DNA of 53,323 nucleotides from Prasinococcaceae sp. CCMP 1430 (GCA_013416795.1 RQSC01000027.1:451630-504952), one strand, 5' to 3'; counted from the first letter of the stretch, positions 2,295 to 30,473 are shown. Program-made: numbers and translations. Notes: generated from the sequence alone by a model not told the origin.

Positions 2295-5200
2295 ATGGGG
2301 GAAGCCCGCGCGGAGCGCAACGCGCCGACGGGTGCTGCGCCCGCACAGCAGGCGGCCGCGGCCGGGGCGGTGGTGGATGTGCGCGCAGGAATAAAGGCGG
2401 CGATCGCCGGGGCAGGCGTGAGGGTATCCTCGACTGGTGGCGTGGCATCGCGCAGGTTTGCGAGCGCCGGTGGCGGCGGCCGGAAGGCGGCACGCGCCGT
2501 GCTTGCCGCAAAGCAGCAGGCGCAGCAGAGGCGAGTGCATGCACGTGCCCACGTGACGCTGCCACCGCTCTGCGACGGCGAGGGCCAAGAGGAGGATGAG
2601 CACGGCGCGGGAGGTCCGCCCTCGCCCGCGCAGGGCCCGGGACCTTTCGTATACAAGGCCTGCTACGTGTGTGCGTGCGTGCGCTCAGGCAGCGCCGTCG
2701 ACGGCGGCACGGGGGCGCGCTCTGCAGATCTCGCGGTCGAGGCAGCGGCGGCGGCTGGCGGGGCCGGAGATGGCGTTGCGGAATCCCCCTGGCGCGCCGA
2801 TGGGCCCTACCACCTGAGTGGGCTATGGCACGCTGCCACCGGCGCACGGGCGCGCTTCGCCTTCGATGCGGTGTGCGATCGCGCCGGCGCCTCGCAGGAA
2901 GCGATGTTTCGTCGCACGGTGCGCCCTCTGATGGCGCCACTCGCGGGGACAAACGCCAGCCTCCTCGTGCTTGCGCTTGGAGCAAGGCGCACCGGCAAGA
3001 CAGCGATGATGTTCGGCCGTCATCAGAGCGGCGGTGGTGTGGTGCACGTCGCGCTGCGGCACCTGCTGGCTGCCCTGCGTGCCCCCCCCCCATCGCCGGT
3101 CCCGGCCGCACGAGAGCGTGGAGGCTCGCCGAGCTCGACCCGGCACTCGCCGATGGCCACCAGTACGATTGGCGGTGCGCCCGTGCTCTGGCTGACGGTT
3201 GTTGAGGCGTCGCATGCGCGCTCGGTCACGTTGCTGCGCTTGGCAGCGTGGGCAGACGTTTCCGAGCGTGGCGAGTCAGCGCTGCTCGACCAACTCAACG
3301 ACGCGCTTGCACAGCGCTGTGAGGACGCTTCGCCAAAGAGGCATCTCGTCGTTACCCTCACAGCTGAAGCGAACGGTGCGAAGTACGTGTACCAGTTTGC
3401 CGACGTCGCGTGGAACGCCGACGAGGGCGCCGGACACGCCACTTCGAGTGCGGCATCGCTGGCGCCGCTTCGTGCCGCGCTCAAGGCGCTCGCGACGAAA
3501 GGCGCAACGGGCGCTGCACCGAAGGTCAGCGCAGCCGCCGGGCAGCTCCGGGTCGCCCGCCTGCTCGGGCCCACACTGCACGCCGCAGCCACTGCCAATG
3601 GGACCGTGTGTTGCCTGCTGACGGTCCCGGAGCGTGGAGGCGCGCATGCTGCCAACAAGGCGGCCGTCGAGGGCGCGAGCGCTCTGTGCAGCATCGACAG
3701 CGCTACCGAACGTCGGCTGCTTGATGCCGCACTGGCGTCCATGGCGGAGGAGCTGCGGCGTGCCGAGGAGAAGACCCCCAAAACTGAGGAGATGGAATCG
3801 GCGCTCGCTGGCGAGCTGCGCTCGCAATCCCACGACGGGGGCGAGATGGCCAAGGCGCTCTCTGAGGCGCAGCGCAAGCTCAAGGAGGCACAAGACGAAG
3901 CCCTGTCGCGACGTGCGCAAGCGCTCAAGAGCATGACCGAGATCGGGACTGCCCATGCAGAGGCTGCGTCAGCCGAGGAGCGCGCCCAGGTCGCAGAAGA
4001 GAGGGCTGCGCTCGCCGAGGAGCGAGTGAACGCCGCGGAGAAGGCGCTCAGTGCTAGCAAGGCGGAGGCAGCAGCCGCCGTGTCTGCCGCCACCGCTGAT
4101 GTGAATATCGCTCGCGCGGAGGCGCACAGGCTCGTCAGTGAAGCTTACTCGTCCGCCGAGTTGGCTAAGGCCCAATTGCAAGGGCAGATCACGCGCACGA
4201 CCGAGCTGGAGGCGCGCATTGCTGCAGTATCGACGGAGCTCGCGCAGACGCACGAGCGAAGCCGTGAGGCCATTTCTGAATCGGCAGATCTCCATGCGTC
4301 AGCGGACATGGCAATGACGATTCTGGACAATCTGGTGAGGGACATCAACGGGGAGGATGAGGATGGCGCCGACCATGACTTGGACATCAATTTCGGGGCG
4401 GTCAGCGACCCCGCACACGCAGGAGCTGCGTCGGCGGCGCTCAGAGCCGTGGACGCCGTTCGGCACAAGCTGCAGGAGCTTCAGGAGGCTGGAGCAGTCG
4501 AAGAGGCGCCGTCTTCTCTGAATCAGCGAGTGCAAGTGCTCACCGACGAGCGCGACTCGCTCGCGGCTGAGCGCGACGCTCTGAGCACCGAGTGCGGCGC
4601 GCTGAAGCGCGAAGCTGAGACGATGCAAAATGAAATCTCCGCGAAGGTCGACGCTGCGCGCCTGGAAATGCAAGCACACATTGAGGCGGAGAGAGTGCGG
4701 AATGATCGGCTAGTCGAGGAACTCGACGTGTACGCTCGGCAGGTCGAAGGCATGAAAGAAGTAGACCATCTTCGCGCCGAGCGCATAGCTGAGCTCGAAA
4801 ATGCAGTGGCGGAAGGTCGGGCATCTTCCGAGGCCGCCAACGCGCAGGTGCGAGATTTGTCATTCGAGCTGGAGACGCTGCAGGGGCGCGCATCTGAAGC
4901 AGAGAATCGTGCACGCGTGGCAGAGGAACGCTCAACGAGCGCCAAGGACAGCTCGAGCAAGCAGATCGAATTGCTTACTAGCGAGGCTGAGGCGTTGCGT
5001 GAGGAGCGCGATGCGTTGGCATCAGAGAAAGACGCGCTTATGGCGGAGGTGGAAGCGGCGTGCGAAGCCGCAGAGGCAGCGAGGGCGCGCACAACGCCAC
5101 AGTCAGACGCCAAAGAAGAGGGGAGCACCGCTGGCTTGGCCCTTGCCGAGGCAGAAGCTACTCGATTGCAGCTTTCCTGCGTTGAAACCCAGCGCGACGC

Positions 5201-8200
5201 GCTCAGTCGTCAGCTCGAGCTCGCACGTGAAGAGCGGGACAGTGCAGTGCGCGATCTGGACGAATGCAAGAGGGCGCTGGCGGGTGGCGCTCTCGATGAT
5301 GAGGTCGAAGGTCTTCGCCTCGACGTTGTGCGCTTGCAAGAAGATCTCAATATGGCGACATCAAGGCAAGCCGAAGCAGATGCCGCGATAAGCGTGTACG
5401 AAGCACGTGTCGTGGAGCTCCAGACCGCCCTCGAGGAGGCAAAAGCGATGGCGGAGTCAGCCGAGCGCGCACGAGCAAAAATTGTGGCTAAGATGGGCGA
5501 GGAGACGGAACGCGCCGACAGTGTGGAAAGCGCCATCCTTGCGGCCGCTGCGCGCGCGGACGCTGCAGAGGAAAAGCTCGCGAACACTTCTTTGAGTGCA
5601 CCGTCGAGTCCAAGAACGAGCTCACTGAGGGCCATCGGTGAGGTCCGCGTTGCGTCCCTCGAGAAGGAAATCACGCCACTGCGCGAAGCGTCAGCGCGCT
5701 ACGAGGCAATGCGCGCGCGCCTCAACGCCGCGGAGGCTGCTGCTGGGGTGCTTGAGGGCGAGCTCACCGCCGTGCGCACCAGTGTCATCAAGGATCATGA
5801 TAGGCAACAGGAGCAGGAAGTGGGCCTTGCGCAGCGCCACACGCGCGAAGTCAGGGACGAGGCAACGGATGATGCAGAGCGCGCTGCAGCTGCCATTTCT
5901 GAATTGGAGGCAGAGCTGGGCAGGGCCCGCGAGCAGGGAGCACAGGAGACTGAGAACCTTCAGAAGGAGATGGTTGCGCTGCACAGTAGGATGGAAAACG
6001 CAGCTGCCAAAGTGCTCGAGCTCACCAAGTGCGTGGACGAGTCCAGAGCGGAGACAAATGCAGCCGCAGCAAAGGCCACGGAGCTGGAGCAGTTGTTGCA
6101 TGCGAGCAGAGAGCAGCTTACCACGACGACCAAGGCGCTCGATGACGCCCAGTCAGAGTTGGCCAGGGGCTCGGATGCTCTCGCAGCATCAGAGGCGAAG
6201 CTCGCGGCTGCTTGCGTGCGCGTGGAGGAGCTCGAAGTCGAGGTGAATGCGCGGGGTAGGGACGTCGATGAGGTCGCAACATCACGTGACAGCCTCGCGC
6301 GAGAGCGCGACAATCTTACCCGCGAGCGCGACAGCCTTGTGAACGAGCGTGACATGCTGCAAGGAAAGCTGCAATGCGCGTCCGAGGAAAGCGACAGGCT
6401 CGCTACATCAGATGCGTCGTCGCGGGAGCGTCTCGAAGTAGTTGAAGCTGAGCGTTCGAGAGCCGAAGCGGCTGTTCGTCAACTCGAGTGCAGCTTGGAG
6501 GAGATGCGCGCGAGGGAAGCCCGCAACGAAGCCGAGCGAGAGGAGGAGCTGACTGCCCTGCAATGTGCCCTTAGAACAGCTTCCGATATGGCCGGCGCTA
6601 GCGAGACCCGGCTAAAGGAAATGGAGGACGAGGTGGCCGCGCGAGAGCGGGAGCACATCGATCAAATCAACGCCTTCCAGAAGAGCTTGGCGGCCTCGAC
6701 CGACGATGGTGCACAGTCGCTCGCTCGCATTGACTCCCTTGAAGCGCAGCTCGTCTCAGCTCAGAGAGACGCCCGCGAGGCTGGTACGCGGCTTGAGAGG
6801 GCCACTGAGGAGCGCGAGGAGAAGGACCTTGCCATCATCGACTTGAGGTCTGAGGTTGGTGCGCTCAACGACAAGCTGAAGGAGTTAGGCGCCGAGTTCA
6901 ACGACGCTTACCAGCTGGCCTCCAAAGAGACTGAGCGCGTAGAGAAGCTGTCGGCCACGATGCAGCGTGCGAAGGAACGCGAAGACGAACTTGAAAAGCA
7001 ATGCGCGGAGAGTGCCGAGCAACTGGCTGCTTGCGAGACGGAGAGGACTCGGCTGATGGCAGAGAAAGAGCAGCTGTCTAAGAGGATAGCGGAGCTCGAG
7101 GGCAAGCTTGTCTCTACCGAAGAGACGGCTCAAAAGAGCGCTCTGCGGATCGCCGAGCTTGTCGTGCGTGTGGAACGTGCTGATGAGGCGACTGACTTCG
7201 CCGCATTCAATGCGTCGGCACAGCTGAAGGAGGCCACAGACGCGGCAGAAGCAGCGGCAGCGGAAGTAAGCACGCTACGCACGAGGCTCGAGACATCGAC
7301 CAGCGAGAGCATATCCCTCAAAGAGCGCCTGTCTGAGATCGAAGACGAGCTCCACGACATGAGAAAGGCTCATGCGGGCGAGACACGCGACGCGGATGTT
7401 CGCGAGGCGGCGCTCGAGTCAGAGAAGGCTACGCTCGAGGCCGAGCTCGCTGACGAGCGCACGCGCGCTGCGATTGCCATGAATGAGAGCCTGCAAAACC
7501 GCGCAAAGGCCGCCGAGTACAGCGAACAGCTCAGGAAGAAGGTGAATGAGTGCAACTCGCTCGATCAGCAGCTGCAGGCGGCACTGTCGGAGGCTGCTGC
7601 TACGGCAGAGGCAAGCAGGGAGGCGTCCAGGCAGGCAGAGAGCAAGATTGTCGACCTCGGCGACGAGCTCGAGAAGGCGCAGAGCAGGCTCGCAGGTTTA
7701 AAGGAAAGAGGCGACGTATTTGCAGAGGAAGCGTTGCAAGCTACCGAAAAGGCCAAAGCGCGCATTGAGGCTCTGGAGAACGAGGTTCGGGTGGTGAAGG
7801 ACGAGCGCGCGGCGCTCGCTGAGGAGAATGCGAAGCGCGTTGCAGAGATAGAGGCTATGCGATCCGAGAACGAAAAGGCGATGGAGGCCGCGCACGTCAA
7901 GCTGATGGCCGCGAGCGAAACTGCGGCGACGACGATCAAGACGCTCGAAGTCCGCGTTGTCGAGCTCACTGAGAAGAGTCAGAAATTCCATGCCCGTGGC
8001 ATCGAGCTCGAGACTGCGCTCGATGATGCAGCCGAAAAGGCCGCTGGAACGAAGCTGGCGCTGGAGCGCAATATCGATGATCTCAGCCGCTCGCTCAAAG
8101 CAACGGAAGAGCGCGCAGACATGTTGGAGTCCAGGCTCCAGACGGCCTCCCGTGAGTCGGCAGAGGCTGCCGAGCGCTCTGCCGCAGCTCAGAGTGCCGC

Positions 8201-10796
8201 CGGGGTACATTTGGAGGAGACGCGCGAGCAGCTGAAGATCGCTCGTGAGGAGAGCGAGCGCCTTGCTGATGCCAAGGAGAAGGTAGAGGATGAAGTCATC
8301 GCTCTTCGGAAGGAGGGCGAAGCCGCCGACGCGGCTGCGACGGCCAGGCTCAACGCTGCCCTCGCTGATGCAAAGGCAAGGCTCGATGCGGCTCATGCAG
8401 ACGCGTCTGCCGCGGCGAACGAGCAAGAGAAGCGCATCGCGTCGCTCACGCAAGACGCGATCACCCTTACTGAGGCGTCGAGGTCCTCAATTGAACGTGT
8501 GAACCAGCTTGAGAGTGATGTGGAGACGCTGCGAGCAGACGCTGCGGCTACTGCCACAGCCAATACTGCGAAGAGTGCAGAAATTAATGCGCTGCTTGCA
8601 TCGACGCGCTCCCGTGTGTCGGACTTGGAGGCCGAACTCGAGGCGCAAACGAAGGCCGCATCGGCCGAAAAGGACGCGGCGGTGTCGGAGGCAAAAGAGG
8701 CTCTTGCTGTTGTTGAGTCGCTGCAGGCCGAGCTCGTCGCCGTTCGCCTCGCGAGTGACAAGCTCAGAGACGAGAAAGACGCGCAGGCACGGGAGGCCGC
8801 CGCCGCCGCCGAGGCGAGCGAGGCACGTCTCAGGCAGGCCACCGATGATGCCGCCGCCGAGGTTGCTGCCGCTCAGCAGCGCATTAATGAGCTCGCGGCC
8901 GCCGCGGACGCTGCGGCTGCATCCGCACAAGCGGCAGCGGACGAGAGCGAGAAACGCATCGTGGCCCTCGAGGAAGCGTTGGCGGCGACGACAGGGCGCG
9001 CGAAAGCTGAGGCACTCACAGCTGAGGACGAAGCGAAAGTGAGGGAGCTGCGTGTTGCAGAATTGTCGCAATCTCTTCAGACGACGCACGAAGAGCTCGC
9101 CGCGAGAATGGCAGAATTGGCGACACTCAAAGAGACCACAGAGAGAGGCCGACTCGAGAGCGAGGCCACCATTCGCGAGCTGCGGGCTGAGCTTGAGATG
9201 GCGCGGAAGGAGGGGGCAGCTTTGGGCGAGGAGCGCAAGAAGCTCGTGGGTGAACTCAAGGCCACGCGCAAGGAAGGCGCCGCCGCCGCGGAGGCAGCAG
9301 CAGCGCAGCTGACGCAGCTTCGCGGCGACCTTGCTGCAGAGATACAGGTGCTTCAGAAGGGCCTCCTTGAGGCGCAGCAGGCAAATGCTGTTGCGCGTGA
9401 GCGGGCAGACAAGGCAGAGGCCGACTCGAGGGCGCTTGAGGCTGAGCTCGCGGAGGCCCACGCCGCATCCGCAAGCGCGGCATCCGGCTTCTCCGAGCGC
9501 ATAGCTACAGTGGAGGCCGATCTCATTGCTGCAAATGAGCGCGCAGCGCAGCTCGTGAAGGACCTGCAGATCTCGGCTACTGAGGCCGTGTCGGCAAAGC
9601 AGGCAGCGGACGCTGGTGCGGCCGAGCAGGAACGCAAGCTCGCCGAGCTGCGATCTGAGCTGGAGGTGGCGCAGCAGGAGAGCGGTGCACTGGCGGAAGA
9701 GCGCTCTCGGCTGGTCGCCGAGCTCGAGGCGCAGCGTGCCGAGTCGTCGGCTGCCGCTGAGGCCGCGCAGGCACGTCTGACGAAGGAGACGGATGACCTG
9801 GGCGAGCGCATCGAGCGGCTCGAGCAAGCTGAGGCTGCGGCGGCCGCGAGGGCAAAGTCGGCCGAGTCACGAGTCGCCGCGCTGGAGGTGGAGCTTGGAG
9901 AGGCGCGAGAGAGCGGTGCCGAGGCGGCGAACGCTGCGGCCGAACGAGCAGCTACCATTCAGGAGGAGCTGGCGTCGGCGCAGTCGAGCATCGCTGAGCT
10001 GGAGGCCCAGCTCGCTCGCAGCGAGGCCGACCTCGAATCGTCGCAGGTGTCATCGAATGCTGTCATCGAGGCTCGCGAGGTCGAGGTCAAGGAGCTGCAG
10101 CAGGAGCTCACCGCCATGAAAGAGGAAAGCGAAGCGCTCGTGGGGGCGCGCGAGGGTCTTGCTGGCGAGTTGGACGCGCTGCGTGCTGAGGCGGCTGCCG
10201 CACAGGAGGCGGCGGCTGCACGGCTAGCGCAGGTCGAAGGCGACGCCGAAGCCGCCCGCAAGGCATCAAACGACCGCGTTGAGGAGCTCAGCAAGGCATC
10301 CGCTGCGGCTGCAGAGCGCGCGGAGGCGGCCGAGGCCCGCGTCCGGGAGCTCGAGACGGAGCTTATCGCCAAGAGGTCGGAGATCGTCGCCACCGCAACT
10401 GAAAACGCCGAGCGCATCCGAGTGCTTGAGGCGAGTTTGGCGAGCTCGTCGGCCGAGAGCGCAGAGCGCGCTCAGCACGTTGCCGCGCTTGAAGAGGCTG
10501 CGGTGGCGGCTGAAAAGGAGGGCGCGATGCGCAGCCAAGAGCTCACCTCACTCGAGTCTGAGCTCGCTGGTGTCAAGGAGGAGTGTACTGCGCTTGAGGT
10601 TGCGCGGGAGACACTGAAGAGCGAGATGGTACTTTTGGAGAAGGAGGCTGCAGCCGCCGCGCAGGCTGCTGAGACGCGCATCGCGCAGATGCGCGAAGAC
10701 GCAGAGGAGGACGCAATGGAGGCTGAGGTTCGCGCCAAGGAGCTTGAAGCCGAGCTCGAGAGCGTGCGTGAGGAGCTGCGGCAAGAACGCGCGTGA
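2295..10796 (+). CDS. Giant coiled-coil protein with a degenerate kinesin-like motor domain
   Basis: One uninterrupted frame of 2833 residues from ATG 2295; the 50 codons before it contain no ATG. Residues about 116-470 follow the kinesin motor in order: an F-FD segment before the P-loop, the P-loop GARRTGKT at 229-236, a GVVHVALRHLL segment, and a final block like the kinesin TRLL..SLGGN..T region followed by a neck. The nucleotide-switch motifs are poor: SPKRH stands where SSRSH is expected, and DVAWN near 370 where DLAGSE is expected. From about 480 to the end the protein is almost pure heptad coiled coil (E/A/R/L rich), with a Ser/Pro-rich break (SAPSSPRTSS) encoded near 5590-5630. Long-tailed kinesins such as CENP-E are the nearest known layout. 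It is probably a cytoskeletal tether or scaffold; motor activity is doubtful. The coiled coil is certain and the kinesin assignment is moderate. Confidence 0.7.
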   Translation: MGEARAERNAPTGAAPAQQAAAAGAVVDVRAGIKAAIAGAGVRVSSTGGVASRRFASAGGGGRKAARAVLAAKQQAQQRRVHARAHVTLPPLCDGEGQEEDEHGAGGPPSPAQGPGPFVYKACYVCACVRSGSAVDGGTGARSADLAVEAAAAAGGAGDGVAESPWRADGPYHLSGLWHAATGARARFAFDAVCDRAGASQEAMFRRTVRPLMAPLAGTNASLLVLALGARRTGKTAMMFGRHQSGGGVVHVALRHLLAALRAPPPSPVPAARERGGSPSSTRHSPMATSTIGGAPVLWLTVVEASHARSVTLLRLAAWADVSERGESALLDQLNDALAQRCEDASPKRHLVVTLTAEANGAKYVYQFADVAWNADEGAGHATSSAASLAPLRAALKALATKGATGAAPKVSAAAGQLRVARLLGPTLHAAATANGTVCCLLTVPERGGAHAANKAAVEGASALCSIDSATERRLLDAALASMAEELRRAEEKTPKTEEMESALAGELRSQSHDGGEMAKALSEAQRKLKEAQDEALSRRAQALKSMTEIGTAHAEAASAEERAQVAEERAALAEERVNAAEKALSASKAEAAAAVSAATADVNIARAEAHRLVSEAYSSAELAKAQLQGQITRTTELEARIAAVSTELAQTHERSREAISESADLHASADMAMTILDNLVRDINGEDEDGADHDLDINFGAVSDPAHAGAASAALRAVDAVRHKLQELQEAGAVEEAPSSLNQRVQVLTDERDSLAAERDALSTECGALKREAETMQNEISAKVDAARLEMQAHIEAERVRNDRLVEELDVYARQVEGMKEVDHLRAERIAELENAVAEGRASSEAANAQVRDLSFELETLQGRASEAENRARVAEERSTSAKDSSSKQIELLTSEAEALREERDALASEKDALMAEVEAACEAAEAARARTTPQSDAKEEGSTAGLALAEAEATRLQLSCVETQRDALSRQLELAREERDSAVRDLDECKRALAGGALDDEVEGLRLDVVRLQEDLNMATSRQAEADAAISVYEARVVELQTALEEAKAMAESAERARAKIVAKMGEETERADSVESAILAAAARADAAEEKLANTSLSAPSSPRTSSLRAIGEVRVASLEKEITPLREASARYEAMRARLNAAEAAAGVLEGELTAVRTSVIKDHDRQQEQEVGLAQRHTREVRDEATDDAERAAAAISELEAELGRAREQGAQETENLQKEMVALHSRMENAAAKVLELTKCVDESRAETNAAAAKATELEQLLHASREQLTTTTKALDDAQSELARGSDALAASEAKLAAACVRVEELEVEVNARGRDVDEVATSRDSLARERDNLTRERDSLVNERDMLQGKLQCASEESDRLATSDASSRERLEVVEAERSRAEAAVRQLECSLEEMRAREARNEAEREEELTALQCALRTASDMAGASETRLKEMEDEVAAREREHIDQINAFQKSLAASTDDGAQSLARIDSLEAQLVSAQRDAREAGTRLERATEEREEKDLAIIDLRSEVGALNDKLKELGAEFNDAYQLASKETERVEKLSATMQRAKEREDELEKQCAESAEQLAACETERTRLMAEKEQLSKRIAELEGKLVSTEETAQKSALRIAELVVRVERADEATDFAAFNASAQLKEATDAAEAAAAEVSTLRTRLETSTSESISLKERLSEIEDELHDMRKAHAGETRDADVREAALESEKATLEAELADERTRAAIAMNESLQNRAKAAEYSEQLRKKVNECNSLDQQLQAALSEAAATAEASREASRQAESKIVDLGDELEKAQSRLAGLKERGDVFAEEALQATEKAKARIEALENEVRVVKDERAALAEENAKRVAEIEAMRSENEKAMEAAHVKLMAASETAATTIKTLEVRVVELTEKSQKFHARGIELETALDDAAEKAAGTKLALERNIDDLSRSLKATEERADMLESRLQTASRESAEAAERSAAAQSAAGVHLEETREQLKIAREESERLADAKEKVEDEVIALRKEGEAADAAATARLNAALADAKARLDAAHADASAAANEQEKRIASLTQDAITLTEASRSSIERVNQLESDVETLRADAAATATANTAKSAEINALLASTRSRVSDLEAELEAQTKAASAEKDAAVSEAKEALAVVESLQAELVAVRLASDKLRDEKDAQAREAAAAAEASEARLRQATDDAAAEVAAAQQRINELAAAADAAAASAQAAADESEKRIVALEEALAATTGRAKAEALTAEDEAKVRELRVAELSQSLQTTHEELAARMAELATLKETTERGRLESEATIRELRAELEMARKEGAALGEERKKLVGELKATRKEGAAAAEAAAAQLTQLRGDLAAEIQVLQKGLLEAQQANAVARERADKAEADSRALEAELAEAHAASASAASGFSERIATVEADLIAANERAAQLVKDLQISATEAVSAKQAADAGAAEQERKLAELRSELEVAQQESGALAEERSRLVAELEAQRAESSAAAEAAQARLTKETDDLGERIERLEQAEAAAAARAKSAESRVAALEVELGEARESGAEAANAAAERAATIQEELASAQSSIAELEAQLARSEADLESSQVSSNAVIEAREVEVKELQQELTAMKEESEALVGAREGLAGELDALRAEAAAAQEAAAARLAQVEGDAEAARKASNDRVEELSKASAAAAERAEAAEARVRELETELIAKRSEIVATATENAERIRVLEASLASSSAESAERAQHVAALEEAAVAAEKEGAMRSQELTSLESELAGVKEECTALEVARETLKSEMVLLEKEAAAAAQAAETRIAQMREDAEEDAMEAEVRAKELEAELESVREELRQERA

Positions 10797-10834: not shown

Positions 10835-13831
10835 TTAGGGAGTGAAATTGTGCGCGAAGAAGCCCGGTGCCAGTGCGGGCGACATATGCTTCGCAACAGC
10901 GTAGGCGAGCGACCGACACAGTCTCTCGCGCGAGCGCATGTCGTCGCAGTAGAAATGATCACCAGGGACCCTGTGCGCGGTCAGCGTGCCGGTTGTAACG
11001 TCCTGCCAGCCCCTGATGTCGCTGTCTGTCACCTGGGCGTCCTGCGTGCCGGCAAACGCCACGATGTTGCACGAGAGCTTCACGGAAGTCTGGGGGGTGC
11101 GGAGTATCGCGGGTGCGGAGAGCTGCTGCTGCTGCAGGTAGGATGACTCGTCGGCCACGGCGTGTTCGCCCCCCTCACCGTGCTTGCCGTGCGTACCCTC
11201 GACGGCGCTGCCATCGTGACCGCCGTCGAAGACGCCATCATGCGCGTCCTCGCCGACGAAGGACATCTCGCCCCTCGTGCGCACGGATGGCGGTGTGGCA
11301 TCGTGTCGGTAGGTCTCTTCAGCGGCAACATCCGCACGAATGGTGCTCATCATTGCCCGCAGCATGAGCGAGTTGCGTCTGAAGTGCCGTGGCAACCGCA
11401 TGCTCGAGCGGAGCGCCTCGGCGAGTTCCTGATCCGGCAGCAGGTGCAGCGCCAGCTGCTTGTCCAGACCGGGTGACGCCCGCCCGCGCGAGACCGGTGG
11501 GCATCGAGACCGCTCGCTGCGTTCGGGCGGAGATGAGTGTTCTTCGAACGCATTCACACACCAGCTTGTCGGGCTGCCACACCCTGAAACGAAAAGCATG
11601 ATGGGGGACCAGTCGAGCTTCGCCTTGAGGGCCCGTGCTGTTTCGTACGCCAGCAGAGCGCCCATGCCATGGCCGAAGAAAACGGCCTTCGACCTCGGGC
11701 CGCGCTTGAACAGCTCGGGCGCAAGAGCGGAGGCGATCTCACATGCAAGAGCGCGTACGCTGTCGAAAGCGGGCTCTTTCACCCTCGAGCCCCTCCCAGG
11801 TAAAAGCACTGCTGTTGTGTTGATGAAATCGGGCAGCAGAGAGCTCCACGCCTCGAACATGACCGGTGCTGATCCACCAGCATATGGGAAGCAATACGCG
11901 TGCATAAGAGGGTCCACACATGCAGCTGGTAGCACCTGGAACCACCTGTGCCACTTGCTCACAGGTGGCGGCGTCACGAAGCGGCAGAGGAACTCCTCGG
12001 CGAGCTCAGTTGCAGCTGTGGGCTGGTTTGGAGCGGCCACTCTGCCATTTGTCTGCTGCAGCGACCCCGTACGTCGACCGTGCGGCGCCCCCGCCTCGCC
12101 GCTCCCATCGCCCTGCGCGCTGCCATCGAATTTGTTCTTGCATCTGAACTTGTCTCCACCCTCGCGCGTCGTGGTGTTGGTTGCAACCCACATGAGCACG
12201 CCTGTGGACGGCACAATCACGAGGACTGAGTCTGCGCCAGCACGACGCGCTCCGCGCAGGTGCAGAATCAATGGCCCTGCATCATCCTCATCGTAGGAGG
12301 CACCCCCATCATTGGGCCGGTGCTGATACCCTGCGTTTGCAGGCAGGGGCAAGCCGCTCGAGGAGCACGCCTGCATGCCAGGGGCGACCATCGTTGAGGA
12401 GCAGGCGCCATCCGCTCGTGCGCATTGCAGCACCCTGAGTTCGTCCACGGCTGCGTCATTGAGCAGCGCACGCCTCGTTCCTGCTGCGGACGCCTCTGAC
12501 TCCAGCAGCGCCCCGCCCAACACGCCCATTTCCTTCGCCGTGAGTAGCAGCCCCACAACAGGCGAGAAGCTCTCGAGGGAATGATCCACCGCAGCGCCCA
12601 GCGGCCGCCAAAAGTTGCCGCGGGTACGATCGAGGCTCTCGCTGCCATCGCTTGCGGTCACCCTGATTGCGCCATCACGCACGTGCTGCGAGGCACTGCT
12701 GAGCTGCGACCTGGCGCTCAGCGCCGCCGTCGGTCTCCCCGCGGTCGTGTATGCGCCTGCAATGCCGTCAGATTGCACGCCCGGATCGAGACCAACACCT
12801 GCGCTGCTGCCGGCGGACACGTAGCTTGTGGCCAGCGCGTCGACGTGGGCCCTCCCCATGCAGTTGAGCGCCGCGCTCATGCGGAGCGGTGCAAAGATAC
12901 TCTGTGCGACCACGTTGGCGAACGTGGTGCCCTCAGCCGCCTCGATTGCAGCGCCGATGAGCAGGTAATTGTAGTCGCAGTCCACGAAGCAAACGCCCGG
13001 GGCGCTGTGCCTCCGCCCACTGCATTGGCTGAGGAACGCCACAAGAGCCGTGAGGGGCTTCTGCGTGGCTGCGCCAGCCGCGCTAGGCGCATCGACACTG
13101 CCGCTGGCCCTTGCCAACGAACTCGAGCCCGCTCCGGTCACGCCGCTTCCGCCCTCTCGCGGATTCGTGCTTGCGGGCCCGAAGCCGCTCGTGTGCGTCA
13201 GCAGGTGGCGAAGCGTCACTGGAGGCGCCCCCTCGAAGCGCTCATCCGGTGCGATGCGCAAGCAAGCCGGCAGGAAGGCGTTTATGTCCGCGTCGAGCTT
13301 TAGAGCGCCCGATTGTGACAGCCTCAGCGCTGCGAGGACTGTTAGTAGCCGCGAGTGCGAGCCAGCGTCGAAAACTGTCTCTGAGTGCGACGCGAGCTTG
13401 CCGGATGCCGCATCCGCGAAGCCAAACGCACGGCACACCTCGAAGTCGCCCGCCCTGGTGCGCGGGTCGTGCGCGCCTTCGGCGCGCCCGGCCGAGCGCA
13501 TGACGCAGCACGCAATGCCGGAGGCATTGTAGCGCCCCAGCGCGAGATGCGCCGCACGCGGGAGCCATGCCTCGATCTCGGCGGCGCACAGTGGGACGCA
13601 CTCGTGGCGGCGCAGCGCTGCCTTCGCACGCACACGCGACGCGCCGCTGCAGCCGCTGCGCGCGGCGCCAGCCGCCAGTGCCGCGAGTGATGCCGCAGAC
13701 CCCAGGGCAGACACTTCAGCTGACCCCCCCGCTTCGGCGTCGCGCTCGCCGCCGAGCGCACCCCCCGCACCACGCCCCTCCTCGCGCGGATCGCTGCCGC
13801 CCGCGCGCTGCTTAGCAAAATCGCTGCACAT
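10835..13831 (-). CDS. Beta-lactamase-like / type II thioesterase fusion with altered catalytic residues
   Basis: A single frame of 998 residues from ATG 13831. The N-terminal half (about 120-600) resembles class C beta-lactamase/serine hydrolases: FDAGSHSRLLT at the SxxK position, the helix ending in LLTHTSGFG, a PG.CF.DCDYNYLLIG block at the YxN position, and a late strand VLVIVPSTGVLMWVATN. The C-terminal third (about 640-998) resembles GrsT-type thioesterases: CFPYAGGS, LLPGRG, FFGHGMGALLAYE, an Asp in GTQDAQVTDSD, and His in PGDHFY. Three key positions differ from the active families: SxxK is SHSR, YxN reads DCD, and GHSMG is GHGMG, so the thioesterase nucleophile Ser is absent. Related thioesterases serve polyketide or peptide synthetases; no synthase lies in this window. 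The N-terminal 100 residues are Gly/Ala rich. The start abuts the E2 gene on the other strand. Confidence 0.75.
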   Translation of the reverse strand: MCSDFAKQRAGGSDPREEGRGAGGALGGERDAEAGGSAEVSALGSAASLAALAAGAARSGCSGASRVRAKAALRRHECVPLCAAEIEAWLPRAAHLALGRYNASGIACCVMRSAGRAEGAHDPRTRAGDFEVCRAFGFADAASGKLASHSETVFDAGSHSRLLTVLAALRLSQSGALKLDADINAFLPACLRIAPDERFEGAPPVTLRHLLTHTSGFGPASTNPREGGSGVTGAGSSSLARASGSVDAPSAAGAATQKPLTALVAFLSQCSGRRHSAPGVCFVDCDYNYLLIGAAIEAAEGTTFANVVAQSIFAPLRMSAALNCMGRAHVDALATSYVSAGSSAGVGLDPGVQSDGIAGAYTTAGRPTAALSARSQLSSASQHVRDGAIRVTASDGSESLDRTRGNFWRPLGAAVDHSLESFSPVVGLLLTAKEMGVLGGALLESEASAAGTRRALLNDAAVDELRVLQCARADGACSSTMVAPGMQACSSSGLPLPANAGYQHRPNDGGASYDEDDAGPLILHLRGARRAGADSVLVIVPSTGVLMWVATNTTTREGGDKFRCKNKFDGSAQGDGSGEAGAPHGRRTGSLQQTNGRVAAPNQPTAATELAEEFLCRFVTPPPVSKWHRWFQVLPAACVDPLMHAYCFPYAGGSAPVMFEAWSSLLPDFINTTAVLLPGRGSRVKEPAFDSVRALACEIASALAPELFKRGPRSKAVFFGHGMGALLAYETARALKAKLDWSPIMLFVSGCGSPTSWCVNAFEEHSSPPERSERSRCPPVSRGRASPGLDKQLALHLLPDQELAEALRSSMRLPRHFRRNSLMLRAMMSTIRADVAAEETYRHDATPPSVRTRGEMSFVGEDAHDGVFDGGHDGSAVEGTHGKHGEGGEHAVADESSYLQQQQLSAPAILRTPQTSVKLSCNIVAFAGTQDAQVTDSDIRGWQDVTTGTLTAHRVPGDHFYCDDMRSRERLCRSLAYAVAKHMSPALAPGFFAHNFTP

Positions 13832-13838
13832 CGCCGCA

Positions 13839-14588
13839 GTTGCAGCGCGCCGCCCACCCCCGTCGCCGGCGCCGGCGGCGCCGAAGGCCGCGGCGCCTGC
13901 ACCCGCCGCCCCGGCGCAGTCTGGCGCGGTGCCCTTCAATACCATGCAGGCGGCCATTGCCAAGAACATGCAGGCCTCGCTCGACGTGGCCGCGTTCCGC
14001 TGCACCGTGGACATCTGCACCGATGACTTCGACGCGCTCTACAAGAAGCTCAAGCCCAAGGGCGTGACCATGACCGCGCTGCTGTCGAAGGCCATCGGCA
14101 ACGCCGTGGGCCAGTACCCGGTCATTAATGCCGGCTGCGACGGCAACGGCTTCGTGTACAACGACTCCGTCAACATCGCGGTTGCGGTCGCCATGGACGA
14201 TGGTGGTCTCATCACGCCGGTGCTCAAGAACGCCGACCAGACCGACATCTACGAGCTGTCGCGTCAGTGGAAGGACCTCGTGGGCAAGGCGCGCAAGAAG
14301 CAGCTGGCGCCGGACGAGTACTCCACGGGCACCTTCACCATGAGCAACCTGGGCATGTTCGGCGTGTCGCAATTCGACGCCATCCTCCCGCCTGGCCAGG
14401 GCGGCATTCTCGCGGTGTCCTCTGCCATCCCCACCGTCTGTGCGTGCGACGATGGCTCCATCAAGGTCAAGAAGATCATGAAGGTCACGCTCTCGGCTGA
14501 CCACCGCACCGTGATGGGCGCCGACGGCGCCGCCTTCCTGTCCACGCTGCGCAACATCATCGAGGACCCTGAGCAGCTCGTGTGGTAA
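13839..14588 (+). CDS. Plastid-type pyruvate dehydrogenase E2 (dihydrolipoamide acetyltransferase), catalytic domain only
   Basis: A Pro/Ala linker (encoded at about 13848-13925) leads into a complete 2-oxoacid dehydrogenase acyltransferase domain. Landmarks are PFNTMQAAIAKNM, KPKGVTMTALL, NIAVAVAMDDGGLITPVL, GTFTMSNLGMFGVSQFDAI and the catalytic SADHRTVMGAD near the C-terminus. The order and wording match chloroplast E2 (LTA2-like), which makes acetyl-CoA for plastid fatty acid synthesis. The lipoyl domain, the E3/E1-binding domain and any transit peptide are missing: the frame becomes a bare linker at its left edge, directly against the start of the opposite-strand gene. The first ATG in frame is 13944, inside the domain. 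Either 5' exons lie farther left across the other gene, or the region is misassembled, or the gene is truncated. A splice acceptor (CGCAG) at 13835-13839 is possible. Confidence 0.85.
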   Translation, partial: VAARRPPPSPAPAAPKAAAPAPAAPAQSGAVPFNTMQAAIAKNMQASLDVAAFRCTVDICTDDFDALYKKLKPKGVTMTALLSKAIGNAVGQYPVINAGCDGNGFVYNDSVNIAVAVAMDDGGLITPVLKNADQTDIYELSRQWKDLVGKARKKQLAPDEYSTGTFTMSNLGMFGVSQFDAILPPGQGGILAVSSAIPTVCACDDGSIKVKKIMKVTLSADHRTVMGADGAAFLSTLRNIIEDPEQLVW

Positions 14589-14816: not shown

Positions 14817-17800
14817 CTAGGTTTCGGGGGGACGGGCCGTCTCCGTCTCCTCCAGCGCCGTTGCTGCATCCTCCTTCGCCATCGTACCAGAGCCCACGCC
14901 TGCCGAAACCTCAGCGCCACCACCAGCATCGACTCGCGGCCCGAGGACGCCTACACCGTCCGCATCCTCGGCGTCCTTCGGCTGCGGCGCCGGCGCGTCC
15001 CTGTCGGGTTCGTCGAGAGCTTCGAGCTCCCACGGGTTGACCCAAAAATGCTCGCCGCGATAGTCCTCGTTGTCCCATGCCACCTCTATGCACTCCCAAG
15101 GATCGCCTCCGGTAGACTGTACGCCCGTCCCGTCGGGCTCATGGAAGTGGTTCTTCACCACGGTGCCACTCCAGAATTGCCCACTCTCCCCGTCGTCCGC
15201 GTAGAACATCCTGAAGCGCTGCCCGCGCCGCCAGCGGAGGCTCATGCCGGCCTCGAATACGTTCTCGGGCACCACGAAGTCGGGTAAGGCGCTGTCCATG
15301 TGCATGGGCGCAGAGATGGGTAGCGAGTCGGCGCCGAGGTTCCCTAGTTTCGCATCGGTGAGCTGATCGACACGGTTCCCCTCATCGAGATCGAGCGCTC
15401 TTGGCACCAGGTGCATCCACACCTTGGGTAGAGGCGATGCTCGCACGACATCGCCATTTGGGTTCTCTCGCCTGGGCTTGTGCGCCCTCGAGCGGGGCTC
15501 CTGCTCCAGGAAAACCACCTCGCGCACGGTGCAACGCATGTGGTGCGGCATGGACGACATCGCTTCCACCGAGCAACCCGCTGGATCCACGGCATCTTTG
15601 ACTGGCCCGAGGCTCCATACGTGCTCCTTGAGCTGCGCCTTGAGGCCGGACCTGAGCACCACCACGTGGTCGCCAGCCTTTGGCACGACTAGGTGGCAGC
15701 CGTTGGAGCGTGCGCGGTGCTGCCACTGCTCGCGCGTGGTTCGCTGCGCCGCACCCGCGCCGAGAGCCTCGGCGAGATCCTGCGGGTCGCTGCTGGCCAC
15801 GGGCGTCGCGTCGAGCTTGGGGAGGAGCAGCGCGAGAGCCTGGGCGAGCGGAGCCTCGTGCGTCGCACGGTCCAGCGCGGCCTCGATGTCCGCGCGCCTC
15901 TTCGGGATTAGCTGGCCCTCGCCGAGGTGGGTCTCCTCGATAGCCACAAGGACAGCAGGCACGGCTGCGGCGAGCTCGGCGGCCGAGCGCGCGCGCGACA
16001 CCAGCTGCTCGGCCACGGCGGCACGCGCGAGCTGGCTTGCAGGCACAATCCAAAAGGGGTACTCGGCGAGGAGACCCAGCAGGACTGAGCGGATGCGCTC
16101 AAGAGGCCACATTGAGAGTGCCAGCTTCGGTGACGTCGCGCGATCGCCCCACCCTGCGAGCCATGCACGGGGACCCGACGCTGCCGCTGCCCATGCCGCG
16201 GCGCTCATGTGCGTGGCCTTGGAAGGTCGCGCGGGCGGCAACGCTGCAATGGCGTCCGCGATGCGACGTTCGCCGGAGGCTCGCAGCGCCTTCTCAAGTG
16301 CGCGCAGCTCACACCCCTGCGCGCTCGCAGCAGAAGCTGCCGCACCAGCAGTCCCATTCCCCGAGGCATCGCCGCTACCGCATGCGCGGCCATACTCGTA
16401 CCACCGGTACAAGTCGCTGTCTCCGTTGCCGCGTCCTCCGTTGCTCCCTGTCAAGGGCTCCTGCACGACCACCGCAGACGTCGGTCCACCGCCTCCCAGA
16501 CTGAGGTACGCGCGCCCCGTTGAGTCGCAGCCCAGCACCGTGCAGTCGCTGGCCTCGTGCAAGTTGGTGCCCCAAGACTTGAGGTGCGCAGCCTCGAGCG
16601 CGCGAATGGCCTGCTCGGGGGCGGGCGACGGTCGTGCGCCATCGCCATCGCCATCGCCTTCTTTGTCCTTCCTGCTCTTGGCGGTCTCTCTTCTACTGGG
16701 GGGCTTACCCACTGACTCTGCGAGCCTCGCCAGAGCCGTGCGGGCGTCAGTCTCGGCCGTTCTCTTCGCCTCGGCGTACGCTCTGAACCCCGGGGCGTCA
16801 GCGAGCACCCTCACCATGTGCGCGAGCAGCTCGCGGCGCCGCTGTACACCCATCCTCCAGTACGGCAGCACCTCGAGAAGCTGCGCAGCAGCATCGAAGG
16901 CGTCAAGCGCCTCCGAAGCAGTCGCGATGGTGGCCGGATCTGACATACCCTGCAACAGCGCACGCAGCGGTGCGTTTGCTGGAGCAAGCGCCCGTCGGAG
17001 CTTGTCTGGCCACGCTAGCGCGCGCATACCCGACCCTCGCGCCACCGCACGCTGCGACACCTCGGGCGCCGCAGCAGCGTGCGACGCGCTTCCAGCACCC
17101 GTGCGGAACGTGCCCGCAGCCGCACTCTCAAGCCCACGCACGAGCGACAGGTGCACATCACCTAGCACCTCCTCGGCTGCGAGCCGCACATGCAGCGCTC
17201 CCGAGGCGTCCTCGATTCGGCCTGCGCCGTCGCCGCCGTCGTCGGCGCCCTGCGTAGTCGGTCCGAGCTCCAAGGCCGCGTGCAGGAGCCTCAGCGAAAA
17301 GGGCCGAATGCCCAGCGCGTGCGAATACTGGTGCATGAAGTCCCAAATCAGGACGACGTCGGCGTGCATCGACGCGTGCATGTAGGTGGGGCGCGGGAGT
17401 GCTGGCGGCACATCGGCGCCCTCGCAGGCGAACGCGCTGGGTGTGCGCATGCCTGACGCGGAGAGGGCCAGACGCGTCTCGAGGCCCTTCCTGCGCGCGC
17501 ATAGCACTGCTTCAAAGCGTTGGCGCACAGTCACCCCGCAGGCCGGTGAGGGTGCCTGGACCACGAATACCACACTCTTGTCAGTAGCCTCGCGCGGCTC
17601 GTGTGGCAGCGGGTCACCATCCTCCACCACTCCCATCGCAGGCATCAAGGAACCGAGCGCCGCGAGCACGAACGGTGCCTCGGCAATCAGGTCGGCTTCC
17701 GCGTACTGGCGGGAGCTCTCACCAACGCCGCTACCGTCACCGCGCAGCACGGCGCCCAGCACCTGCGCGTAAGTCGCTCCGGGCTCACGAGCGAGGGCAG

Positions 17801-18779
17801 CCGCTGCTCGGACGGTGAGGTCGCGCTTCCGCAACGCACCGGTCAGCCCGCCGGTGCGTCCGTACGCGGCGGACGCAGTTCCAAGCACGTACCACGCTGC
17901 ACCCGTCGCCACCCACAAGGCACCACCCTGCCCGTAGTCGACCCCCCACTCAACCACACCATCCACCTCGATGTGTTCCATCGCGCCGCCGTGCGACTGT
18001 CGTAGCGTGCCTCTGAGCGTCACCGGCGTGTCCACACACACGCCGTCAAGTGGGGCCGCGGCCGTGCCTGCGCCGCCATCGCCAGGCGGCCGCATCGCGC
18101 GCTCGATCAGCTCGAAGTCGTCGATGAGGTAGCAAGGCAACTCCGTCGCCGCGCCAACGGCGGCTTCGCCCGAGCCGAGTGCTGGCGCGAGCGAGCGCAA
18201 CCGGAATGCGTCGGCATGCGGGGGTGGAGGAAGCGTTGCACGCGTGCCCGGGCGCGGTCGAGGACGATACTGCCACGCGGCAGGCTCAGCTACCCCCTGT
18301 GGGATTAAAGCAGCGCTTGGAGGGCACGGAGCATCCTCCGCCTCGCTCGGCGCGGGCTCCTGTGCGCCTGGCTCGCTGGAGCCACCCGCTCGCAGGCGCT
18401 GCTCCGCACCGCGCACGTGCGCAGGCGCAGGCGGTGGCACGGCTGTCGAGGCCGTCGCAGCGGCTGGAGTCCGCGGAGCTCGTTTCCTGGAGATCTTGGA
18501 CGCAGCGCCAACCGCCGGCTGTTTCTGTCGTGGCCTCGGCTTGGCTCGGCTCTGCTGCTGCTGCTGCCGCCGCTCATGCTCGTGCTGCTTGTGCTGCTGC
18601 TGCAGCTGCTCGTGCTGCTGATGTACCTGCTCCTGCGCGCGCGCGTGCTTCGGCTTCTTCGGCTTGGGCGACGCCGGCGCCGCCGGTACATACTCCTCCG
18701 GTTTCCTCCTCCTCCGCGCGCCGCAGACGACAGCATCGAGGTCGAGGCCTGCCAGGCCGCGGTCCCGCCTGCCCGCCAT
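14817..18779 (-). CDS. Chromatin regulator with RFTS-like, DDT, WHIM and BRWD/PHIP-type modules
   Basis: 1320 residues from ATG 18779. An AT-rich frame extends upstream, but this start begins a basic, nuclear-looking N-terminus (MAGRRDRG, then KPKKPKHARA). A Gln/His-rich stretch follows at about 50-80. Residues about 210-375 resemble the DNMT1/MET1 replication-foci-targeting domain: a CYLIDDFELIE start, VEWGVDYGQGGALWVATGAAWYVL and a helical end. Residues about 472-505 match a DDT domain (VVLIWDFMHQYSHALGI, then LLHAAL). About 633-663 resembles WHIM1, and 739-762 resembles WHIM2 (TVLGCDSTGRAYLSL). Residues about 1080-1254 resemble the cryptic Tudor region of BRWD/PHIP: RRGQRFRMFYADDG, FWSGTV, IEVAWDN and NPWELEAL. 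No methyltransferase, bromodomain or PHD finger is present. DDT-WHIM proteins partner ISWI remodellers and read linker DNA spacing; a role in nucleosome spacing coupled to histone or ubiquitin reading is inferred. Confidence 0.75.
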   Translation of the reverse strand: MAGRRDRGLAGLDLDAVVCGARRRRKPEEYVPAAPASPKPKKPKHARAQEQVHQQHEQLQQQHKQHEHERRQQQQQSRAKPRPRQKQPAVGAASKISRKRAPRTPAAATASTAVPPPAPAHVRGAEQRLRAGGSSEPGAQEPAPSEAEDAPCPPSAALIPQGVAEPAAWQYRPRPRPGTRATLPPPPHADAFRLRSLAPALGSGEAAVGAATELPCYLIDDFELIERAMRPPGDGGAGTAAAPLDGVCVDTPVTLRGTLRQSHGGAMEHIEVDGVVEWGVDYGQGGALWVATGAAWYVLGTASAAYGRTGGLTGALRKRDLTVRAAAALAREPGATYAQVLGAVLRGDGSGVGESSRQYAEADLIAEAPFVLAALGSLMPAMGVVEDGDPLPHEPREATDKSVVFVVQAPSPACGVTVRQRFEAVLCARRKGLETRLALSASGMRTPSAFACEGADVPPALPRPTYMHASMHADVVLIWDFMHQYSHALGIRPFSLRLLHAALELGPTTQGADDGGDGAGRIEDASGALHVRLAAEEVLGDVHLSLVRGLESAAAGTFRTGAGSASHAAAAPEVSQRAVARGSGMRALAWPDKLRRALAPANAPLRALLQGMSDPATIATASEALDAFDAAAQLLEVLPYWRMGVQRRRELLAHMVRVLADAPGFRAYAEAKRTAETDARTALARLAESVGKPPSRRETAKSRKDKEGDGDGDGARPSPAPEQAIRALEAAHLKSWGTNLHEASDCTVLGCDSTGRAYLSLGGGGPTSAVVVQEPLTGSNGGRGNGDSDLYRWYEYGRACGSGDASGNGTAGAAASAASAQGCELRALEKALRASGERRIADAIAALPPARPSKATHMSAAAWAAAASGPRAWLAGWGDRATSPKLALSMWPLERIRSVLLGLLAEYPFWIVPASQLARAAVAEQLVSRARSAAELAAAVPAVLVAIEETHLGEGQLIPKRRADIEAALDRATHEAPLAQALALLLPKLDATPVASSDPQDLAEALGAGAAQRTTREQWQHRARSNGCHLVVPKAGDHVVVLRSGLKAQLKEHVWSLGPVKDAVDPAGCSVEAMSSMPHHMRCTVREVVFLEQEPRSRAHKPRRENPNGDVVRASPLPKVWMHLVPRALDLDEGNRVDQLTDAKLGNLGADSLPISAPMHMDSALPDFVVPENVFEAGMSLRWRRGQRFRMFYADDGESGQFWSGTVVKNHFHEPDGTGVQSTGGDPWECIEVAWDNEDYRGEHFWVNPWELEALDEPDRDAPAPQPKDAEDADGVGVLGPRVDAGGGAEVSAGVGSGTMAKEDAATALEETETARPPET
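18547..18640 (-). repeat. Gln/His-coding CTG/CTC-rich repeat
   Basis: Imperfect CTG/TGCTG triplets that read as Gln- and His-rich sequence near the N-terminus of the chromatin protein. A low-complexity linker. Confidence 0.7.
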
Positions 18780-28088: not shown

Positions 28089-30473
28089 GTGGTGGCTGTT
28101 GCGCTCGGCGCAGCTGCCACAGCTCGCGCGCGCAATAAAGTGGCGACGCCACTGGCGTCGCCCCCCCCCCCCCTCCCCCCTTCCCCACGGCGCGCCGGCC
28201 GTGGCGGCGCCCCCGTGGCAGGGGTGGGCGGTGATGAGGGCGGGCCGCACAGCGGCGGCATCGGCGGCGGCAGCAACCCCGCCATCCAAGCGCAAGTCCC
28301 GCTCAGCGACCTCCTCCAGGGGGGGCCACTGGCTATATCGCCGGCGCGCCTCGACGCGCTCGCACAAGCCCTGGCGGCCCGCCAGGCTCAAACAGTTGCG
28401 CCCGCGAGCAGGTGGCATGCGAGCGCCACAGTGGGTGCATCCGCGACGGATCGATCCCCTGCGGCGGCAGCCCCAGCTGCGACCGGCCCCTTCTTGACCA
28501 AAGGCGCGATGCGACTCTTCGAGGTCCACTTCGCGAGGATGGAGAAGGAGGACCTGCCTCCCGCTGACGATGACGAGGCGGAGGAAGCGGCCAAGGCCGC
28601 ACCAGTGTCTTCGGCACCGCGCAAGGCTGCGAGCCAGCAGGCGCGCGTCGCCGCTGCTGTGGCGAAGTACGCCCCGGTGGTGACGCGCGCAGGTGTGAAC
28701 ACTCACGCGGGCACCGGTGCTGGCGCAAGCGGCGCGCCGACCGGGCCTACAAACTTGCACGACGTGCCCGAGCACAAGGCCACTCTCACCATGAGCGAGC
28801 ACAAGATGTTTGGCGATGTGATGAGGTCAGAGGCCGAGGGGGTTTCACTCGAGTGGCGCGGTATTGATGAGCTGCGGCGCAAGGTGGCGGCCGAGCAGGC
28901 GGCGTACTACGAGTGGGAGCGGGCAGTGCTTACAAAGGACCCGGCGTACGCGCGCGCTGCCGACGCGGTGTATACGGCGGCGGCGCATGCTTGGGTAGCT
29001 GCTGCTGATCGCGTCGCGTCTGGACTGCCTCCCACATTCGCCTATTACTCCGAGGTCGAACTTGGAAGCTCGCCAGCCGGCAGCGAAGGCGCTTCACACG
29101 CGGGTGCGCAGGTTTGCCGCGAGTCTCACGTGTCTGGAGCCGGTAGAACGCCTGATCTGAGTGCCATGGACACATTCGAGGAAGCGAAAGTGCGCAGGAA
29201 GAGCCTGCTCACCACTGCGGAGGAAATGGGCGATTTGATCGCCCGTGGCGATGCTGCGCGCGAGGCCTGTCTAGATGCAGTCGTCGGCGCGAGCGGTGGC
29301 GCTGTTGGAGGTACCAGCAAAGGCGCCATGAAAGACGCGGTCATAGGTGTTGCGGAGGCTGGTGATGACCTGACGGATGGGAAGGGCGACCTCACGAAAG
29401 GCCCCGGCCTTCTGGGCTCGGACGGGGACAACGGCGTTGGCAAGCACAAGGGCGACCGCGTTGGCATGGGCGTTGGGCTCGCCGCCGCCAAAGGGTGCGC
29501 GGTGGTCGTTGCGGAACGTGCGCTCGCGGTGCTGCTCACCGAGGACAAAATCGGCCTTCGCGGGGCGTGGGAGTTGCCAATCGAGGTGCTGTGCGAGCCC
29601 GGTGCTGGCGAGGGCCCGCATGCGGTGCTGTTCGAGCCGCTACACCCGCTGGTGCAAGGTACGCGCGAGGCGGAGGCTCGAGCGTACGCGGCGGCCGCAT
29701 GCGCGGAGAGCGCCGTGTGCGCGGCCGGCGGTCCAGCTGCGCCCGAGCGCGACTGTTCTTTCAGTGTCTGGGCCTTGGACAAGCGGGGTGAAGCCGGCGG
29801 TCGCACGATGCCTGCCCGAGCGGCCGCGAAGCGACAGCGGGCGAGCCAGACTCGCACCCTCCTACTCGTGGCCTCACCTTCGACGGGGCTGGTCGCGCGC
29901 GACGGCAGCATACAGTCGCATGTGAGCGTCTTCGCGCACGCGCAGCACGTGCCTCCGGGGAAAGGCGCCGAGGAGACGAGCCCGTCCGAGTCAGTGCATA
30001 TGTGGGTCGCACGCAACAGCTGGAAGGGAGGGAAGGCGGCCATGGTAAACGTGGATGCTAGGAACGGCAAGGTCCTTCGTTGGAACGTCCAAAGTGAGGA
30101 CGAACGTGCGGCATGCGAGGCACGCACCCTGCAGGCAGTTGTGAGCGCAGTGCTGGGATTGCCGCGCGGGCGCTTCGTCCTCTCCAAGGCGGCGGACTCC
30201 GACAGGGTGTACATGCTCGCGGCAGCGGGGCGGCACCATCACAGCAAGTCCGGCAAGGCTCCGTACGAACTTCGGCGCGTGCACGCCGAGTGCGCAGCGG
30301 CTGTGGCCAAGCGCCCGAACGCCGTTGCACCCGCAGAATATGTGCCGCTCGCATGGGTGCGCAAGCACAAGGGGCAAATCCCGCGGACGTTCGGCATGCT
30401 GCTGGACAAGGTCAATCCGTATCGGGCATATACACCAAGCACTCTGAAGGAAAAGAAAAAGAGAAAGATGTGA
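28089..30473 (+). CDS. ICE2/NARC2-like little elongation complex subunit (tentative), 5' end unresolved
   Basis: The frame is open from 28089 to TGA 30473 (795 codons), but its first in-frame ATG is at 28509. Coding-looking sequence (LSDLLQGGPLAISPARLDALAQAL) lies before that ATG. The true start is therefore in an upstream exon, or a frame change occurs near the G-run at 28320. The middle is Ala-rich with helices (ELRRKVAAEQAAYYEWERAV). The C-terminal 220 residues follow the NARC2_C domain in order: SVWALDKR, a LLLVASP strand, HVSVF then GAEETSPSESVHMW, VDARNGKVLRW, GRFVLSK, APYELRRVH and QIPRTFG, with a Lys/Arg tail (KEKKKRKM). In animals ICE2 sits in the little elongation complex, which supports RNA polymerase II transcription of small nuclear RNA genes. 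This assignment is by eye and moderate. It converges on SF3A1. Confidence 0.55.
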   Translation: MVAVALGAAATARARNKVATPLASPPPPLPPSPRRAGRGGAPVAGVGGDEGGPHSGGIGGGSNPAIQAQVPLSDLLQGGPLAISPARLDALAQALAARQAQTVAPASRWHASATVGASATDRSPAAAAPAATGPFLTKGAMRLFEVHFARMEKEDLPPADDDEAEEAAKAAPVSSAPRKAASQQARVAAAVAKYAPVVTRAGVNTHAGTGAGASGAPTGPTNLHDVPEHKATLTMSEHKMFGDVMRSEAEGVSLEWRGIDELRRKVAAEQAAYYEWERAVLTKDPAYARAADAVYTAAAHAWVAAADRVASGLPPTFAYYSEVELGSSPAGSEGASHAGAQVCRESHVSGAGRTPDLSAMDTFEEAKVRRKSLLTTAEEMGDLIARGDAAREACLDAVVGASGGAVGGTSKGAMKDAVIGVAEAGDDLTDGKGDLTKGPGLLGSDGDNGVGKHKGDRVGMGVGLAAAKGCAVVVAERALAVLLTEDKIGLRGAWELPIEVLCEPGAGEGPHAVLFEPLHPLVQGTREAEARAYAAAACAESAVCAAGGPAAPERDCSFSVWALDKRGEAGGRTMPARAAAKRQRASQTRTLLLVASPSTGLVARDGSIQSHVSVFAHAQHVPPGKGAEETSPSESVHMWVARNSWKGGKAAMVNVDARNGKVLRWNVQSEDERAACEARTLQAVVSAVLGLPRGRFVLSKAADSDRVYMLAAAGRHHHSKSGKAPYELRRVHAECAAAVAKRPNAVAPAEYVPLAWVRKHKGQIPRTFGMLLDKVNPYRAYTPSTLKEKKKRKM
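28161..28184. repeat. C13 homopolymer and polypyrimidine tract
   Basis: C13, T, C6, then TTCCCC. It resembles the tract before a splice acceptor; a CAG follows at 28219-28221. This would fit an intron ending just before the readable part of the ICE2-like gene. Confidence 0.6.

Follow-up and report, generated by a model that had tools for sequence, protein, structure and literature searches.

We analysed a 53,323 nt window of the Prasinococcaceae sp. CCMP 1430 assembly (GCA_013416795.1, RQSC01000027.1:451630-504952), in which GC content is 61-73%. The minus strand between positions 14817 and 18779 carries a single-exon gene, P0001, whose open frame of 1,320 codons runs from an ATG at 18779 to a TAG stop at 14817 with zero internal stops; the plus strand across the same interval is riddled with stops. 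The predicted protein begins with a basic, Q/P/A-rich low-complexity N-terminus (residues 1-190; 18210..18779, minus strand, as are all features of P0001 given below) that is presumed to be disordered, and in which Pfam reports a weak match to CHZ (E 0.22). The order of modules in the frame is RFTS, DDT, a candidate WHIM, and a cryptic Tudor (cTudor) region. A Pfam search of the whole protein found no methyltransferase, bromodomain or PHD finger, as the initial annotation of this locus had stated, and no B3, PB1, BAH or WD40 domain.

By sequence comparison, the cTudor is confirmed as the strongest module of P0001, with both of its halves present in order. The second Tudor-like unit (ARF_AD/BRWD_AD; residues about 1163-1257; 15009..15293) is matched by the Pfam family ARF_AD at residues 1168-1255 in a search with the whole protein (E 2.2e-9, 37.5 bits, cut-off 27), and a search with the corresponding fragment raises the score to 40.1 bits (E 3.4e-10); the BRWD_AD family reaches 21.4 bits in the whole protein (E 2e-4), under its cut-off of 40. 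An HMM built from cTudors of the same genome scores 25.4 bits on P0001 (E 1.5e-7), and the top score among 300 shuffles was 2.5 bits. When the PDB was searched with the second unit, only auxin response factor (ARF) chains were matched, among them 6sdg with an E-value of 0.0017. The first Tudor-like unit (residues about 1019-1058, with the motif VPKAGDHVVVL; 15606..15725) was located by alignment to the genome's own BRWD/PHIP cTudor, with which it is in order, and is weak when scored alone (2.4 bits). The region had been annotated initially as BRWD/PHIP cryptic-Tudor-like. This label is right as a statement of homology, because the ARF AD is homologous to the PHIP cTudor (PMC11685440), but it does not hold as family membership, since the best Pfam family is ARF_AD, which the annotation had not named. 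In PHIP, the cTudor reads methylated histones; it is homologous to the DD-AD of ARFs, and the DD-AD has been proposed to descend from it (PMC11685440). No relatives of the cTudor were found in viral contigs.

RFTS is known mainly from DNMT1, the maintenance methyltransferase, where it has a regulatory role. In P0001, an RFTS-like (DNMT1-RFD-like) domain is predicted at residues about 216-375 (17655..18134) from a fragment score with PF12047, from BLASTP and from pairwise alignment. With the fragment spanning residues 190-400, PF12047 scores 22.4 bits (E 1.3e-4; matched residues 269-345), over its cut-off of 22, and it is in this form that the proposed RFTS-like module stands; in the whole protein the score is 17.8 bits (E 0.0036), under the cut-off. 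The match begins at position 63 of the 144 in the profile and so leaves out its N-terminal part. In a pairwise alignment with the RFTS of an Acf1-like protein encoded in the same genome, the YLI..F start and the W..DYG core agree. No acidic ubiquitin-interacting segment was seen before the P0001 domain on inspection by eye, with the motif of human DNMT1 as the reference. A phmmer match of the RFTS fragment to thiolase (0.0021), over Ala/Gly-rich residues, was judged to be compositional.

The DDT core lies at residues 474-503 (17271..17360). PF02791 scores 23.8 bits on a fragment spanning residues 420-640 (E 4.8e-5), over its cut-off of 22, and 18.9 bits in the whole protein (E 0.0016), under it; the match spans 30 of the 58 profile positions. 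Homology extends towards WHIM1 (residues 468-654; 16818..17378) when P0001 is searched with an HMM of three DDT paralogues from the same genome, which gives 13.4 bits (E 7e-4), as compared with a maximum of 2.8 bits in 300 shuffles. Further downstream is a WHIM2/WSD-like candidate (residues about 745-835; 16275..16547) that is defined by motif only, LGCDSTGRAY at residue 749 followed by VVV. The pattern LGxDx5Y is invariant in the four WSD paralogues of the genome; 0.5% of shuffles contain it in that interval, and a six-frame translation of the window (63,978 residues) contains it once, at residue 749 of P0001. An hhalign comparison also puts WHIM at the expected place (E 0.11), where a low-confidence single-sequence model has a helix, three strands and further helices. 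Nonetheless, Pfam gave no WHIM match in P0001, whether whole or in fragments, and HMMs made from the genome's own WSD domains gave no signal. The DDT-WHIM module proposed initially can thus be kept for DDT, with a fragment score over the cut-off and a paralogue HMM that beats all shuffles, whereas WHIM, for which the LGxDx5Y motif is found without profile significance, is not statistically established. Single-sequence AlphaFold models of residues 1005-1260 and 195-870 (mean pLDDT 39 and 40, respectively) were too poor to judge folds, and a Foldseek search with the model of residues 195-870 returned no structural match.

We searched the assembly, which comprises 24.5 Mb in 145 contigs, for proteins with related modules. 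A chlorophyll a/b-type light-harvesting protein encoded in it places the organism in the green lineage. The assembly encodes a single ISWI ATPase with SNF2, HAND and SLIDE domains, and WSD matches well over the cut-off mark four proteins other than P0001. An Acf1-like protein of 1,466 residues (L008:2590-6990, minus strand) has the arrangement WAC-WSD-RFTS, with the RFTS at its C-terminus (L008:2593-3192); PF12047 matches the last 200 residues at 31.5 bits (E 2.2e-7), covering profile positions 10-142 of 144. Because P0001 and this protein both carry an RFTS, the domain is predicted to be joined to ISWI-type subunits twice in this genome, at opposite ends. None of the cytosine methyltransferases examined shows an RFTS, and an RFTS-bearing DNMT1 was not found in the genome; a six-frame genome search with PF12047 gave zero matches, missing even P0001, so other RFTS genes could escape it, and the Acf1-like RFTS used as a genome query matched itself only. 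The cytosine methyltransferases include two with chromodomains (L023 and L024) and another that reads like DNMT5 with an SNF2 motif. In L024, two chromodomains and HEAT/TOG-like repeats share a frame with the methyltransferase.

Two further cTudor-containing proteins are encoded elsewhere in the genome. The product of L022 has BRWD1_N and WD40 matches by Pfam, and a cTudor by alignment and a weak BRWD_AD match; we take it to be the canonical BRWD/PHIP of this genome. In the other (L007:1589-4393, minus strand), a cTudor precedes NSD-type PHD fingers, and inspection by eye suggests a PWWP-like stretch as well; the gene lies at a contig end, and its N-terminus may be missing. A recent survey of DD-AD domains folded the architectures that it found into ARF or PHIP (PMC11685440). 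Judged by their predicted domain content, the cTudors of L007 and P0001 fall outside both.

Comparison with known systems reveals partial likenesses. P0001 has a DDT and then a WSD-like motif, as do the ISWI accessory subunits ACF1/BAZ1A and Itc1 and plant DDT proteins, in a genome that encodes a HAND-SLIDE ISWI; unlike these subunits, it is without WAC, PHD and bromodomain, its WHIM is not significant, and it adds RFTS and cTudor ends. The Acf1-like protein of the same genome also has an RFTS on an ISWI-type subunit, but at the C-terminus, together with WAC and no cTudor. The double-Tudor cTudor of P0001 is homologous to the histone reader of BRWD/PHIP proteins, but the BRWD N-terminal domain, WD40 propeller and bromodomain are missing, and L022 encodes a separate, WD40-bearing BRWD/PHIP. 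With DNMT1/MET1, P0001 shares the RFTS-like domain by PF12047 (over the cut-off only as a fragment) but neither BAH nor methyltransferase. With ARFs it shares the second Tudor half but neither PB1 nor B3, the latter being inserted in the DD in ARFs. Membership in the ARF, BRWD/PHIP and DNMT1 families was rejected, since the defining domains are missing.

DDT normally docks onto ISWI nucleosome-sliding motors. We propose, with a probability of roughly 0.6, that P0001 belongs to the ISWI remodelling motor of the alga as an accessory-type subunit with two chromatin-reader ends. The DDT core, probably together with WHIM, would bind the one ISWI ATPase of the genome at its SLIDE end, and the N-terminal RFTS fold and the C-terminal double-Tudor cTudor would serve as two reading ends that choose the nucleosomes to slide. 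We infer this arrangement because structural models of Itc1/Acf1 show the ISWI SLIDE domain enveloped by DDT and WHIM1-3 (PMC12093815), and because the PHIP cTudor reads methylated histone; the ISWI ATPase and the Acf1-like protein with its own RFTS, both encoded in this genome, lend independent support. By analogy to PHIP, the mark read by the cTudor of P0001 would be a methylated histone tail. P0001 would then form a complex with ISWI and affect nucleosome position. Against this proposal, WHIM1 and WHIM2, which help to grip SLIDE, are significant in no profile test, DDT is partial and marginal in the whole protein, and the RFTS is likewise marginal and lacks a match to the N-terminal part of its profile. 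Overall, we regard the architecture of P0001 as real and unusual, with one module that is weak, and the mechanism outlined here as plausible.

The initial annotation had suggested that the protein couples a replication-linked histone mark to nucleosome spacing. Coupling of chromatin marks to an ISWI motor is a reasonable inference, given that the genome has a HAND-SLIDE ISWI and a second RFTS-bearing ISWI-type subunit. By contrast, replication-linked ubiquitinated H3 is unsupported as the mark: the RFTS profile is not matched over its N-terminal part, no ubiquitin-interacting segment was apparent in our by-eye comparison with the human motif, and no RFTS-bearing DNMT1 was found. The idea has no backing other than the name RFTS.

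An alternative possibility is that P0001 is a scaffold of another complex, in which what is left of the DDT has lost its binding to ISWI and a different partner is engaged through the RFTS and the cTudor. The partial DDT, a WHIM that is undetectable by profile and the four other proteins with WSD domains well over the cut-off all fit this alternative, which we consider unlikely but worth taking seriously; the extended homology of residues 468-654 to the genome's own DDT paralogues and the WSD motif, which lies where it would be expected, argue against it. Considerably less probable is that the RFTS and DDT matches arose by chance in an Ala/Gly-rich protein, the cTudor alone being real. Both E-values for the whole protein accompany scores under the curated cut-offs, and an HMM made from the single Acf1-like RFTS yields only 0.2 bits on P0001. 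Nonetheless, both fragment scores exceed those cut-offs, none of eight shuffled versions of the RFTS and DDT fragments with matched composition gave a match to either family, the own-genome DDT HMM scores P0001 above all 300 shuffles, and BLASTP of the P0001 RFTS against the Acf1-like RFTS gives 6e-5 with composition adjustment on.

We give marginally less credence still to the possibility that the frame spans at least two genes, or includes retained introns, such that the modules are not in one protein. Long spurious frames occur on both strands of this GC-rich genome, and the one-frame reading of P0001 is drawn from the DNA sequence alone. However, 200 dinucleotide-random sequences of 6 kb contained no open stretch longer than 556 codons, far short of 1,320; GC at the three codon positions (0.74/0.56/0.76) is similar to that in nearby genes that have Pfam matches, and this gene-like pattern is maintained over the entire frame; and profile matches at residue 269 and residue 1255 share one frame. 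The absence of introns is normal here, because the neighbouring genes with Pfam hits are long single frames too. The single frame of 1320 residues described initially is borne out by these data. Lastly, it is very improbable that P0001 is an ARF relative acting as a DNA-binding transcription factor: ARF_AD is its best Pfam family and is over the cut-off, and the PDB matches to its second Tudor half are to ARF chains only, but the absence of B3 and PB1 refutes ARF membership, and a cTudor would be expected to match ARF_AD if the AD of ARFs had its origin in the PHIP cTudor (PMC11685440).

If P0001 is indeed an ISWI subunit with two reader ends, it suggests an undescribed way to steer nucleosome sliding by histone marks. 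The presence of RFTS on two predicted ISWI-type subunits, with no RFTS-bearing DNMT1 seen, suggests an independent role for this domain in targeting nucleosome remodelling. We found no description of RFTS combined with DDT, or of the full P0001 combination, in the open-access papers searched, which agrees with the initial annotation in treating it as undescribed but is not proof of absence. The cTudors of P0001 and L007, found outside BRWD/PHIP, may add two more architectures to the survey's two, and a non-BRWD/PHIP cTudor offers a case on which ideas about how auxin response factors arose can be tested. In pairings of AD sequences, P0001 gives Z-scores of 10-12 with ARF ADs, as compared with 4-6 for the genome's canonical PHIP; with six short sequences whose rates of change may differ, this is a lead rather than a tree. 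We therefore raise, as a speculation that is more probably wrong than right by a wide margin, that a green-algal cTudor of the non-BRWD/PHIP kind, such as the reader end of an ISWI subunit, could be closer than the WD40-bromodomain PHIP to the ancestral stock of the ARF DNA-binding scaffold.

Other genes in the window also have unusual features. An open frame of 2,883 residues on the plus strand (2145-10796) has no Pfam match at 0.001. On the minus strand, serine beta-lactamase-like and thioesterase domains are fused in one frame of 1,061 residues (10835-14020). A weak match to NARG2_C (ICE2, little elongation complex; 1.6e-4, under the cut-off) lies in a plus-strand gene at 28089-30473. Lastly, a PALP (cysteine-synthase-like) domain is fused to a PLP-dependent decarboxylase on the minus strand (50562-53312), a fusion that may act in algal taurine synthesis as a cysteate synthase-decarboxylase.
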